Assembly (NCBI RefSeq): GCF_019795155.1
Contig: NZ_JAILYN010000011.1
Span: forward strand, 1-64,000
Direction of reading: 5' to 3'
Origin: Marinobacterium arenosum
GTDB lineage: Bacteria; Pseudomonadota; Gammaproteobacteria; Pseudomonadales; Balneatricaceae
DNA: 64,000 nt
Below the pieces are notes generated by a model. It worked only from the letters and a program-made list of their open reading frames with translations, was not told the DNA's origin and searched no databases. Position numbers and translations under genes: made by a program. Every line of letters begins with the position of its first letter. Position 1 is the first letter of the stretch. Of this stretch, positions 1 to 50,800 are shown one piece after another.

Positions 1-478
1 CTGCTACGGGGCTCTGTGGTAGCAGCCCGCTCCGAGGGCGAAATCCACGGGGCGTGCCAGACCTGTCGCGGTCGGAGCCCGCTGCTACGGGGCCTGTGGT
101 AGCAGCCCGCTCCGAGGGCGAAATCCACGTCGGTGCCAGGCCTGTTGCGGTCGGTACCCAAGGGGCATGCCAAGCCCGCTGCTACGGGGCCTGTGGTAGC
201 AGCCCGCTCCGAGGGCGAAATCCACGTCGGTGCCAGGCCTGTTGCGGTCGGTACCCAAGGGGCATGCCAAGCCCGCTGCTACGGGGTTCTGTGGTAGCAG
301 CCCGCTCCGAGGGCGATATCCACGTACGGTGCCAGGCCTGTCGCGGTCGGAGCCCGCTGCTACGGGGCTCTGTGGTAGCAGCCCGCTCCGAGGGCGATAT
401 CCACGGACCGTGCCGGAACCCTCGCGGTCAGTACCCAAGGGGCATGCCAAGCCCGCTGCTACGGGCCTGGGAGGTTTG
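1..478. repeat. REP array flanking the RAYT gene, left side
   Basis: Tandem REP palindromes in alternating orientation (BIME-like). Type R1 reads GTAG-CA, stem GCCC, loop GCTCCGA, stem GGGC, GA. The opposite-facing type R2 has stem GCGG/CCGC around the same loop. Some R2 copies carry a 19-base insert in the loop (TGGCATGCCCCTTGGGTAC). The GTAG foot is the kind of tetranucleotide that RAYT transposases are known to recognise. Open frames through the array give repeating peptides and are not genes. Confidence 0.9.
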
Positions 479-543
479 CCGCAGCAATAACCCCCTGCTA
501 CGTTTTACGCTGGTTGATGCCAGAGATAACAGGGAGGTTAGGT

Positions 544-1002
544 ATGGCGACTGCAGGCTTTCGTAGCCAGAATCTACGTAAGGGGCGCAGTTCAGTGCCC
601 CAGCAGATATACATGATCACTACCGTCACCCATCATCGGCTGCCGCTCTTCACAGATATCCAAACTGGCCGTTGTGTGGTTAAAGCACTTCAGGAGGCTA
701 GTTCCTCCGCTCGAACCCTCGCCTTTGTCGTGATGCCCGACCACCTCCACTGGCTGATGCAGTTGAACGAGGGATATTCCTTGTCCCAGAGCGTTCAGTT
801 CGTCAAAAGCACCTCCAGCCGGTTGATTAACCGATCTCTATCCAAGACGGGGCGGGTATGGAGCAAAGGTTATTATGATCAAACGTTACGTCGTGAAGAC
901 GATATTATCGGGTACGCGCGCTATATCGTGGCCAACCCGCTGCGTGCCGGTTTGTGTCGATCGGTTCGGTATTACCCATTGTGGGACGCCATCTGGTTGT
1001 AA
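544..1002 (+). CDS. rayT: REP-associated tyrosine transposase (RAYT, Y1/HUH family)
   Basis: A 152-residue single-domain Y1 transposase. The HUH motif lies at residues 64-70 (MPDHLHW, with His67 and His69). A WSKGYYDQTLR block is at about 106-116, and the ARYIVANPLRAGL block at 125-137 should carry the catalytic tyrosine (Tyr127 by analogy with E. coli TnpA-REP). The ATG at 544 is chosen over the in-frame upstream 514 because a GGAGG sits at 534-538. The gene lies between two REP arrays of the same family, the usual REPtron layout. RAYTs cleave and join single-stranded REP DNA at GTAG and are thought to spread REPs rather than themselves. The length is normal and nothing suggests decay. Family assignment is firm; activity is inferred. 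Confidence 0.92.
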   Translation: MATAGFRSQNLRKGRSSVPQQIYMITTVTHHRLPLFTDIQTGRCVVKALQEASSSARTLAFVVMPDHLHWLMQLNEGYSLSQSVQFVKSTSSRLINRSLSKTGRVWSKGYYDQTLRREDDIIGYARYIVANPLRAGLCRSVRYYPLWDAIWL

Positions 1003-1005
1003 AAT

Positions 1006-1335
1006 CCGCACCGAGGGCGAAATCCACGGGGCGTGCTAGACCTGTCGCGGTCAGTACCCAAGGGGCATGCCAAGCCCGCTGCTACGGGGGCCTGTGGTAG
1101 CAGCCCGCTCCGAGGGCGGTATCCACGGACGGTGCCAGGCCTGTTGCGGTCGGTACCCAAGGGGCATGCCAAGCCCGCTGCTACGGGGCCCTGTCGTAGC
1201 AGCCCGCTCCGAGGGCGATATCCACGGACGGTGCCAGACCTGTCGCGGTCGGTACCCAAGGGGCATGCCAAGCCCGCTGCTACGGGGCCCTGTGGTAGCA
1301 GCCCGCTCCGAGGGCGACACCCACGGCGGTGCAGG
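1006..1335. repeat. REP array flanking the RAYT gene, right side
   Basis: The same R1/R2 palindromes continue directly after the RAYT stop codon, first as a partial R1 half and then as three alternating pairs. Two or more R2 copies hold the 19-base loop insert. The array stops 15 bases short of the TAG codon of the minus-strand VWA gene. Confidence 0.9.
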
Positions 1336-7300: not shown

Positions 7301-7900
7301 TCGCCCTCGGAGCGGGCTGCTACGGCAGGATCGCCTGTAGCAGAGGGCTTGGCATGCCCTTGGGTACCGACCGAGACCGGGGCGGCACGACGGTTCGAGG
7401 ATGTCGCCCTCAGAGCGGGCTGCTACGACAGGCACCCGTAGCAGCGGGCTTGGCATGCCCCTTGGGTACCGACCGCGACGGGTCGGCACCGACGTGGATT
7501 TCGCCCTCGGAGCGGGCTGCTACGACAGGCCCCGTAGCAGCGGGCTTGGCATGCCCCTTGGGTACCGACCGCGACAGGCCTGGCACCGTGCGAGGGTGTC
7601 GCCCTCGGAGCGGGCTGCTACCACAGGCCCCCGTAGCAGCGGGCTTGGCATGCCCCTTGGGTACCGACCGCGACAGGCCTGGCACCGTGCGAGGGTGTCG
7701 CCCTCGGAGCGGGCTGCTACGACAGGCACCCGTAGCAGCGGGCTTGGCATGCCCCTTGGGTACCGACCGCGACAGGCCTGGCACCGTGCGAGGATGTCGC
7801 CCTCGGAGCGGGCTGCTACGACAGGCACCTGTAGCAGCGGGCTCTGACCGCGACGGGTTTGGCACCGACGTGGATGTCGCCCTCGGAGCGGGCTGCTACA
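7301..7900. repeat. REP array, reverse orientation
   Basis: About six R1/R2 pairs of the same family as at 1-1335, spaced at about 115 bases. R1 faces the minus strand and R2 the plus strand. Most R2 copies carry the 19-base loop insert; the last one (near 7831) is the short form. It fills the gap between two convergent transcription units. Confidence 0.92.
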
Positions 7901-26823: not shown

Positions 26824-26898
26824 TGCTGTTAGGCGTAGCAGTCCGCCTTTTATGCCCGAGTGTGCTGCGGGCGACGGGTATTTGTTCAGCCGCCCGGG

Positions 26899-43816: not shown

Positions 43817-43950
43817 TTGTATTTGGTTACGATGGGAAAGGTAGTGGGTTGGTTCAGCCGCCGGCCCGAACAAGAGACGCCGCAGCTAACGGCCTGTCGC
43901 CCGCGGCACCCACGGGCATAAAAAGCGGGTTGCGACGGAGCACGGAACCC

Positions 43951-48511: not shown

Positions 48512-50116
48512 ATGTCTGATCTGCAAAAGTGGGATGTCGAGGACCCGAAATTCTGGGCCTCGGAAGGCAAGTCGGTCGCCAACCGCAACCTGTGGATATC
48601 GATCCCCAGCTTGCTGTGCGGCTTCGCGGTATGGCTCTACTGGGGCATCATTACCGTACAGATGCTCAACCTGGGGTTCCCGTTCGCCAAGGCGGAGCTG
48701 TTTACCCTGGCCGGTATCGCCGGCCTGACCGGTGCCACGCTGCGTATACCCAGCAGCTTCTTTATCCGTATCGCCGGCGGCCGCAACACCATCTTCTTCA
48801 CCACCGCCTTGCTGATGTTGCCGGCGATCGGTACCGGCCTGGCGCTGCAGGACAAGGATACTCCGCTGTGGGTGTTCCAGCTGCTGGCGTTCCTGTCCGG
48901 TATCGGCGGCGGTAACTTCGCCTCCTCGATGTCCAACATCAGCTTCTTCTTCCCGAAACGTCAGCAAGGGCTGGCGCTGGGTTTGAACGCCGGGCTGGGC
49001 AACGCCGGGGTGACCACCATGCAGATCCTGGTGCCGCTGGTGATGACCTTCGGCATCTTCGGCGGCGAGCCGATGATCCTGGAGAACACCTCCGGTACCC
49101 TGATCGGCAAGATTCCAGCCGGCTCCGAGACCTATATCCACAACGCCGGTTTCGTCTGGCTGCTGCTGCTGGTACCGCTGGCGATCGCCGGCTGGTTCGG
49201 CATGAACAACATCCGCACCGAGTCGGTGTCGCCGGATATCGGCAGCCCGCTGGGGTCGATGTCCAAGGTCGGCGGCTTGCTGCTGATCGGCTTCTTCACC
49301 GCCGCCTGCGGCCTGTACATCATCCTGCCGGCGCCGACCGGGCTGGGTGCGCCGGGCTGGGCCAAGTGGCCGGTGATCGCCGGTATCCTGTTCAGCACCG
49401 TGATGCTGATGAAGCTGATTCCGGGCGATATCCGGCCTAATCTGCAGCGTCAGTTCAAGATCTTCAACAACAAGCACACCTGGATCATGAGTGTGATCTA
49501 TACCATGACCTTCGGTAGCTTCATCGGTTACTCGGCCGGCTTCGCGCTGGCGATCAAGGTGGTATTCGGTTATCAGCACATCATGGTCGATGGCGTACTG
49601 ACCCATGACACCGTCAATGCCAACGGTCCGTCGGCATTGATGTACGCCTGGATGGGACCGTTCATCGGCGCGCTGATCCGCCCGGTTGGCGGCTGGATCG
49701 CCGACAAGATGGGTGGTGCCAAGGTGACCCAGTATGTGGCCATTGTGATGATCGCCAGCGCGCTGGGCGTGGCTTACTTCCTGCAGGCGGCTTACCAGTC
49801 GGCGACCCCGGAACAGTTCTTCGTGCCCTTCCTGCTGTTGTTCCTGGTGCTGTTTGCGGCTACTGGTATCGGTAACGGTTCCACTTTCCGTACCATCGCC
49901 ATGGTGTTCCCGAAAGAGCAGGCCGGTCCGGCACTGGGCTGGACTTCCGCCGTGGCCGCCTACGGTGCCTTCCTGATCCCGAAAATCTTCGGTGAGCAGA
50001 TCAAGCTGGCCACTCCGGAGAACGCGCTGTACGGCTTTGCCGTGTTCTACGCGGTCTGCCTGCTGCTGAACTGGTGGTACTACCTGAGCCCGAAAGCGGA
50101 GTTCAAGAACCCGTAA
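48512..50116 (+). CDS. narK2: Nitrate/nitrite transporter NarK, type 2
   Basis: A 534-residue NarK-family protein, longer than type 1 because of extended loops (about 195-215 and 345-375). It carries FASSMSNISFFFPKRQQGLALGLNAGLGNAGVTT in the first half and STFRTIAMVFPKEQAGPALGWTSAVAAYG in the second, both nitrate-signature regions. CAGGAG precedes the ATG. Type 2 proteins are regarded as nitrate/nitrite antiporters. A terminator follows, so narG is not simply read through. Confidence 0.9.
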   Translation: MSDLQKWDVEDPKFWASEGKSVANRNLWISIPSLLCGFAVWLYWGIITVQMLNLGFPFAKAELFTLAGIAGLTGATLRIPSSFFIRIAGGRNTIFFTTALLMLPAIGTGLALQDKDTPLWVFQLLAFLSGIGGGNFASSMSNISFFFPKRQQGLALGLNAGLGNAGVTTMQILVPLVMTFGIFGGEPMILENTSGTLIGKIPAGSETYIHNAGFVWLLLLVPLAIAGWFGMNNIRTESVSPDIGSPLGSMSKVGGLLLIGFFTAACGLYIILPAPTGLGAPGWAKWPVIAGILFSTVMLMKLIPGDIRPNLQRQFKIFNNKHTWIMSVIYTMTFGSFIGYSAGFALAIKVVFGYQHIMVDGVLTHDTVNANGPSALMYAWMGPFIGALIRPVGGWIADKMGGAKVTQYVAIVMIASALGVAYFLQAAYQSATPEQFFVPFLLLFLVLFAATGIGNGSTFRTIAMVFPKEQAGPALGWTSAVAAYGAFLIPKIFGEQIKLATPENALYGFAVFYAVCLLLNWWYYLSPKAEFKNP

Positions 50117-50259: not shown

Positions 50260-50800
50260 GTAGCAGCCCACTCTGTGGGCGACCATCCGCGGACTTCGAA
50301 AGAACCTATGTGGGTCGCGGCTAAACCTGCCCAGCGGAGTTACTCCTACAGGGGCCGCACTTCGTAGCAGCCCGCTTGGTATGCCCTTTGGGTGCTGAGG
50401 GCGACAGCCGCGGACTGCGGTAAAACCCATCGCGGTCGGAGCCCGCTGCTACAAGGACCGTGCTTCGTAGCAGCCCGCTTGGTATGCCCTTTGGGTGCTG
50501 AGGGCGACAGCCGCGGACCGTGGTAAAACCTATCGCGGTCGGAGCCCGCTGCTACAAGGACCGTGCTTCGTAGCAGCCCGCTTGGTATGCCCTTTGGGTG
50601 CTGAGGGCGACAGCCGCGGACTGCGGTAAAACCCATCACGGTCGGAGCCCGCTGCTACAGGGGGGGCTTCGTAGCAGCCCACTCTGTGGGCGACAGCCGC
50701 GGACTGCAGTAAAACCCATCGCGGTCGGAGCCCGCTGCTACAAGGACCGTGCTTCGTATCAGCCCGCTTGGTATGCCCTTTGGGTGCCGCGGTCGACAGC
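50260..50800. repeat. REP array with loop-inserted R1 units
   Basis: About five repeats of roughly 110 bases between narK2 and narG. Here it is R1 (stem GCCC/GGGC) that carries a 19-base loop insert (TGGTATGCCCTTTGGGTGC), whereas in the arrays near 1 and 7300 kb-scale positions the insert sits in R2. R1 with stem GCCCAC/GTGGGC is also present at both ends. Confidence 0.9.

Follow-up and report, generated by a model that had tools for sequence, protein, structure and literature searches.

A Loop Insert in Common Between Two Stem Types of a REP Family in Marinobacterium arenosum

Two different REP stems of Marinobacterium arenosum, termed R1 and R2, carry the same insert at one fixed position of their hairpin loops, and three of the resulting 21-nt loops are identical on both stems. 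Since the same 18 nt at the same place would hardly result from two insertions, the sequences suggest that one long loop passed between the two stems at least once. In our preferred reading, to which we give a probability of roughly 0.7, a single GTAG-tagged REP family comprises both R1 and R2 as stem types, and an insert that appeared on R1 in one form (class B) gave rise to a second form (class A), reached R2 and was amplified there in arrays.

Layout and Copy Number of the REP Family

The genome of M. arenosum (4.8 Mb in 115 contigs) contains a family of GTAG-tagged REPs that is also present in the window, i.e., the whole analyzed stretch of 64,000 nt at the start of contig NZ_JAILYN010000011.1. 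The short form is a 23-mer composed of GTAGCA, a 6-bp stem, a loop (TCC or TCT in most copies) and the tail GA(C), and the fifth of the six pairs is usually a G.A mismatch. Two main stems were distinguished, R1 (GCCCGC/GAGGGC) and R2 (GCGGGC/GACCGC). The order GTAG-CA-stem-loop-stem-GAC, that is, a head, two unpaired bases, a palindrome and an unpaired 3-base tail, resembles the GTAG-dinucleotide-stem-tail layout of the GTAG-1 type as outlined in passages of Di Nocera et al. (2013, PMC3733652). The short pattern matches at least 510 times genome-wide, and at least 83 strict short-short pairs are arranged head to head. In about 0.41 Mb of genome plus the window, 162 head-to-head R1-R2 doublets of the REPIN/BIME kind were found, 82 of them with a 24-nt spacer, by a search whose output also contains matches due to chance (among them 21 'RX long' rows). 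An Rfam scan of the window gave no family at the gathering score.

The long form is a 41-mer in which 18 nt are added after T13 of the 23-mer, and the two lengths are discrete, with no continuum between them. The insert common to both stems had been recognized in a preliminary description of this DNA, where its length was overstated by one base (19 nt). Exact matches to TGGYATGCCCNTTGGGTNC number 100 in the 4.8-Mb genome, far more than expected by chance; a reversed control pattern gave none. The loops fall into class A, with the motif TGG[T/C]ATGCCC.., and class B, a T-rich insert of the form T..TTTATGCCCG[CT]GGGTGCC, for which 26 matches, with at most 3 mismatches each, were obtained in a search that set no condition on the stem.

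The counts below, the loop network and the folding analysis are confined to loops of class A or B that sit on an R1 or R2 stem. On this basis, 130 long REPs at 65 loci (53 on R1 and 77 on R2) were counted in about 0.41 Mb of genome plus the window, a sample including most places of the class B matches. Class A was found on R1 in 33 copies at 15 loci and on R2 in 77 copies at 40 loci; class B was represented on R1 by 20 copies at 15 loci and on R2 by none. A second parser arrived at 137 long REPs after 11 of 148 parsed rows with unclear class had been dropped, and this set was used for the locus statistics.

REP Arrays in the Window

The array between narK and narG occupies a gap flanked by a NarK/NarU-like transporter gene (48512-50116) and narG (ORF to 55089). 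Three long R1 REPs on the forward strand (50364..50404, 50467..50507 and 50570..50610) have the same class A loop TTGGTATGCCCTTTGGGTGCT, which holds TGGTATGCCCTTTGGGTGC. A fourth long REP of R1 type, with the head altered to GTATCAG and the 3' arm GCGGTC, is located at 50756..50796 (+), just beyond the range covered by the preliminary description. The R2 partners in this array are short and lie on the reverse strand: 50430..50452 pairs with 50364..50404, 50533..50555 with 50467..50507, and 50719..50741 with a short REP of R1 type at 50671..50693 (+). The latter has the stem and loop GCCCAC-TCT-GTGGGC, which is also found in a short REP of R1 type upstream of the array (50260..50282, +).

In the arrays of regions 1-1335 and 7301-7900, it is the R2 loops that hold the insert (TGGCATGCCCCTTGGGTAC), whereas the R1 loops are short, and a few short R2 copies are mixed among the long ones. 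The former array (19..1317) consists of short R1 REPs on the forward strand and R2 REPs on the reverse strand; long R2 copies have heads starting at 185, 282, 462, 1085, 1184 and 1283 (-), and short R2 copies are located at 66-88 and 341-363 (-). A RAYT gene lies inside this array at 544..1002 (+; NF047646 140 bits at a cut-off of 80, Y1_Tnp 46.7 bits). The latter array (7301..7899) has short R1 REPs on the reverse strand and R2 REPs on the forward strand, the R2 copies being long at 7438-7478, 7534-7574, 7633-7673 and 7732-7772, long and degenerate at 7337-7376, and short at 7831-7853 (all +). The division proposed earlier, with the insert on R1 at narK-narG and on R2 elsewhere, thus describes these arrays correctly but is incomplete, as both stems carry the insert at many loci and R1 additionally carries class B.

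Two further copies in the window have a loop of class B or similar to it. An R1-type long REP with the class B loop TTTTTATGCCCGTGGGTGCC and a decayed head (GTCGCA) is located at 43897..43936 (-), and at 26835..26874 (+) lies what is probably the relic of another such REP of R1 type, which was excluded from the counts as its class-B-like loop begins with C. Elsewhere in the genome, long-REP arrays were found at the contig ends of C1, C22, C23, C55, C66, C67, C74, C101 and C113, so the assembly breaks there and the array sizes seen may differ from the true ones.

Exchange of the Loop Between R1 and R2

The 48 distinct loops form one network of 72 changes over 47 edges, mostly single-base steps. 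This single sequence family and the loops found unchanged on both stems argue for exchange of the insert as a module rather than for independent insertion, the two options between which the preliminary description had left the choice. Differences among the three shared loops are confined to C/T sites, so that a single transfer followed by parallel changes would also fit. Stem labels are clustered in the network, with 16 mixed edges versus 25.5 expected (p = 0.0045; this and the following p-values on loops and loci are optimistic, since related copies are not independent), yet they are interleaved.

The classes are distributed unevenly. Class B is confined to R1 (p = 1.9e-7 by locus), and loop position 5 is more often T on R1 and more often C on R2 (A_T4 versus A_C4 by stem, p = 2.4e-4 by locus). 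The heads of long R1 REPs are more decayed: intact GTAGCAG was found at 39 of 44 loci of class A on R2, compared with 12 of 19 for class A and 6 of 16 for class B on R1. Class A on R2 differed from both R1 groups (p = 1.8e-4 versus class B, p = 0.033 versus class A), while no significant difference in head decay was observed by locus between the two classes on R1 (p = 0.18). This pattern suggests that class B is the older form and that the insert was present first on R1 and then on R2, although some A_C4 loops on R1 may be back-transfers from R2.

The proposal that a pair contains at most one long REP was rejected. The strict finder yielded no pair with both partners long among 162 doublets (56 loci, p = 3.2e-4, in a test biased by the fact that the stretches had been picked for containing long REPs), but a laxer search found five among 77 long R2 copies. 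In these pairs (C23:43319, C28:11189, C28:62052, C31:13747 and C31:13958), the R1 head GTAGCAG is altered in all five cases, as judged by eye.

Most likely, the RAYT of 544-1002 mobilizes R1 and R2 REPs in the form of inverted pairs (REPINs/BIMEs). The insert, a variant in loop length, most probably had a single origin as the T-rich class B, behind base 13 of an R1-type hairpin. From class B, class A would have evolved, and class A would have moved into R2 loops by recombination or template switching. Such a transplant is plausible because both stems have the flanks GTAGCAGC..GCT and YGA in common; candidate routes are gene conversion between these common flanks and template switching in an inverted pair. 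Once on R2, the loop would have been amplified in arrays.

Origin of the Long Loop

A parasitic or modular element inside the REPs, as envisaged in the preliminary description, would account for the constant position of the insert on two stems and at many loci if a separate mobile element had repeatedly entered the REP tip. However, each of the 103 insert matches obtained with a slightly wider pattern in 40 sampled stretches is bordered by REP-like sequence on one or both sides, as judged by eye, so that no copy stands free of it. Moreover, no gene and no duplicated target were seen, and the graded sequence change of the insert, tied to stem type, resembles descent. A scan with the long-REP patterns of genome_contigs and viral_contigs, where records of this or very near genomes may be absent, gave no matches. 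A parasite strictly specific to the REP loop may also fit these data; overall we consider a mobile element very unlikely. Even less credible is that R1 and R2 gained similar inserts independently, e.g., each from the neighboring spacer. Class A loops show a weak similarity to the spacer in one register (p = 0.037 for the consensus and 0.01 for the best single spacer), but this comparison is post hoc, and the corresponding values are 0.74 and 0.365 for the intermediate loop of 50364 and 0.066 and 0.125 for class B. With no increase towards the older class B, copying of the insert from the REP-pair spacer was rejected as its source, and the identical loops on both stems likewise speak against such parallel gains. 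The GCCCG of the R1 5' arm recurs in class B and is too short to test a partial duplication of the arm.

A different order of events, in which the long form is ancestral and short REPs are deletions of it, draws on the mixed arrays at 19-1317 and 7301-7899, where single units may lose or gain the insert, and on class B, whose diversity and decay indicate that it is old. Relatives point the other way. Across 56 further genomes from the genus, family and order of M. arenosum, none of the matches listed was to the long patterns, searched as exact patterns, while the short pattern is present at least 63 times in genome G024, at least 8 times in G010 and once each in G002 and G003; relatives with the REP family thus matched the short pattern only. 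The sequence in G024 that best matches the window RAYT (64% identity) has short R1/R2 copies on both sides, and short copies, here with perfect 6-bp stems, likewise surround the RAYT of Pontibacterium sinense (60% identical). Because relatives have short REPs beside a related RAYT and none matches the long patterns, the short forms probably predate the long ones; a general derivation of short REPs from long ones by deletion, the outcome that the preliminary description had named as decisive against its view, is not supported, and we regard it as quite unlikely. Slightly less so, though still unlikely, is that long REPs constitute a distinct functional class for another RAYT or DNA-binding protein, an idea also raised in the preliminary description. 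It is in keeping with the two discrete lengths and with the presence of several RAYTs in the genome, where seven RAYT-like ORFs were identified (an eighth match is a 25-residue fragment). However, long REPs occur within about 1.5 kb only at the window RAYT (544-1002), which also has short ones, and none of the seven is flanked by long REPs alone. Four other RAYTs adjoin different short REPs, namely GCCCAC-TCT-GTGGGC at the RAYT of contig C36, GTAGGAGGGGCTTCAGC at that of C26 and GTAGGAGGCGCGCC at those of C32 and C42, and no REPs were found beside the remaining two (C63 and C24).

Predicted Folding of Short and Long REPs

In predicted folding of the single-stranded DNA, the median probability of the four GTAG-adjacent pairs, determined after exclusion of 40 rows with a broken outer stem, was 0.87 for short R1 and 0.92 for short R2. 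It was 0.60 and 0.88 for two sub-classes of long R2, 0.04 and 0.19 for long R1 with class A, and 0.007 for R1 with class B. The predicted GTAG-adjacent stem differed between long R1 and long R2 with p = 4e-5 (31 versus 26 distinct sequences). When class A loops were swapped between the stems in the predictions, probabilities ranged from 0.035 to 0.55 on R1 and from 0.55 to 0.92 on R2, indicating that the stem makes most of the difference. Shuffled inserts displayed a weaker trend in the same direction (0.215 on R1 versus 0.379 on R2; real versus shuffled, p = 0.002), and class B is predicted to fold poorly on R1 and R2 stems alike, which makes the folding argument a partial one. Selection of the insert hairpin as such was rejected, as neither long R2 (z 0.54) nor class A on R1 (z -0.36) folds better than shuffles; one class B sequence does (z -2.91).

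These predictions suggest that, on R1 more than on R2, the stem next to GTAG is weakened by inserts of class A, which could explain the success of this commoner class on R2. With low confidence, long R1 REPs may be seen as poor substrates that decay, and transfer to R2 as the event that allowed amplification. A more specific and rather doubtful idea sees the loop as a structural switch. In the R1 context, the inner GCCC/GGG arms would take the partner strands of the GTAG-adjacent stem and thereby silence the REP for the RAYT, while on R2, where these arms would pair less well, the loop would be tolerated as a passenger and amplification of the long REP would become possible. If this were true, REP mobility would be set by hairpin tips acting as recombining modules, and a small hairpin of the group-3 kind would become a longer one of the group-2 kind through the insertion.

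Comparison With Known REP Systems

Several loop lengths within one REP family, as found here, have been described before. According to passages of PMC3733652, GTAG-3 REPs of enterobacteria have several loop lengths in one family and form dimers exclusively of elements differing in loop length, and GTAG-14 REPs of Bradyrhizobium/Rhodopseudomonas have long loops with a self-complementary interior of up to 27 bp. In these passages loop types are catalogued by family and species, whereas here one loop is found on two stems of one genome, together with intermediates.

For E. coli, sections of PMC8266576 describe the y, z1 and z2 REPs (35, 29 and 37 nt), which differ in loop and upper-stem length, are combined in BIMEs and are all processed by one TnpA-REP (TnpA-Ec) without a loop sequence requirement. 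TnpA-REP systems are stated there to require the hairpin adjoining GTAG and, in group 3, certain loop bases as well. The same sections assign E. coli REPs to group 2, with palindromes that are imperfect and bulged, in contrast to the small group-3-like hairpin of the short form here; an upper stem-loop occurs here only in the long form. These sections further report REPtrons of Marinomonas: Ma REPs measure 42 and 38 nt, and in Mb REPs a small perfect hairpin follows GTAG at a distance of two bases. In layout (GTAG, two bases, a short stem) the short REP of M. arenosum corresponds to Mb, and the long one is near Ma in length, a likeness of layout and length alone; Ma and Mb are presented as separate systems with their own transposases, whereas both lengths have head, stem and tail in common here.

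The inverted doublets near a RAYT are also reminiscent of REPINs, which in Pseudomonas fluorescens SBW25 consist of inverted REP doublets close to specific RAYTs. The main text of Bertels and Rainey (2011, PMC3116915), where the word 'loop' is absent, proposes them as the replicating unit; in M. arenosum, by contrast, the partners differ in stem and loop length. In the orthoswitch model (Nunvar et al., 2013, PMC3686654), presented in a main text from which the words 'loop' and 'stem' are absent, new REP variants spread while older ones remain and decay; there the variant spreads from the RAYT-flanking copy, whereas here the loop would move between stems. Our literature search, with subscription papers mostly outside it, found no report of a genome in which two REP stems have one loop in common. 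Variation of REPs in loop length is already known, and the traceable transfer of one loop between two stems would be new.

The loop length and palindrome type of REP families vary with the species, which raises the question of how these layouts arise from one another; whether the two REPtron groups have a common ancestor is asked in sections of PMC8266576. As both layouts, short and long, exist on identical stems in the present genome, with hundreds of copies and with intermediates, loop transfer and its effect on RAYT cleavage are directly testable. As a caution, long and short REPs should not be treated as separate families.

Further REP and RAYT Observations

The congeners G001, G002 and G003 have zero to one match each to the short REP pattern among the matches listed and none to the long patterns, and their best RAYT matches are 39%, 59% (over 93 residues only) and 51% identical, respectively. 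Genus g8 of the same family has REPs together with RAYTs at 60-64% identity. This patchy distribution between congeners and g8 suggests transfer or loss.

The genome contains at least three further RAYT/REP systems (at C36, C26, C32 and C42, corresponding to loci L140, L005, L003 and L004), whose REPs are GTAGCAGCCCACTCTGTGGGCGA at C36, GTAGGAGGGGCTTCAGC(C/T)GCGA at C26 and GTAGGAGGCGCGCCCCGCGGCGA at C32 and C42. In addition, a third REP type (GTAGGAGGGGATTTATCCGCGA or ..CTTCAGCC..) pairs head to head with some R1 REPs (C20:83443, C23:43105 and C75 (L040)); it was the partner of 4 of 20 class B, 1 of 16 A_C4 and 6 of 203 short R1 REPs.
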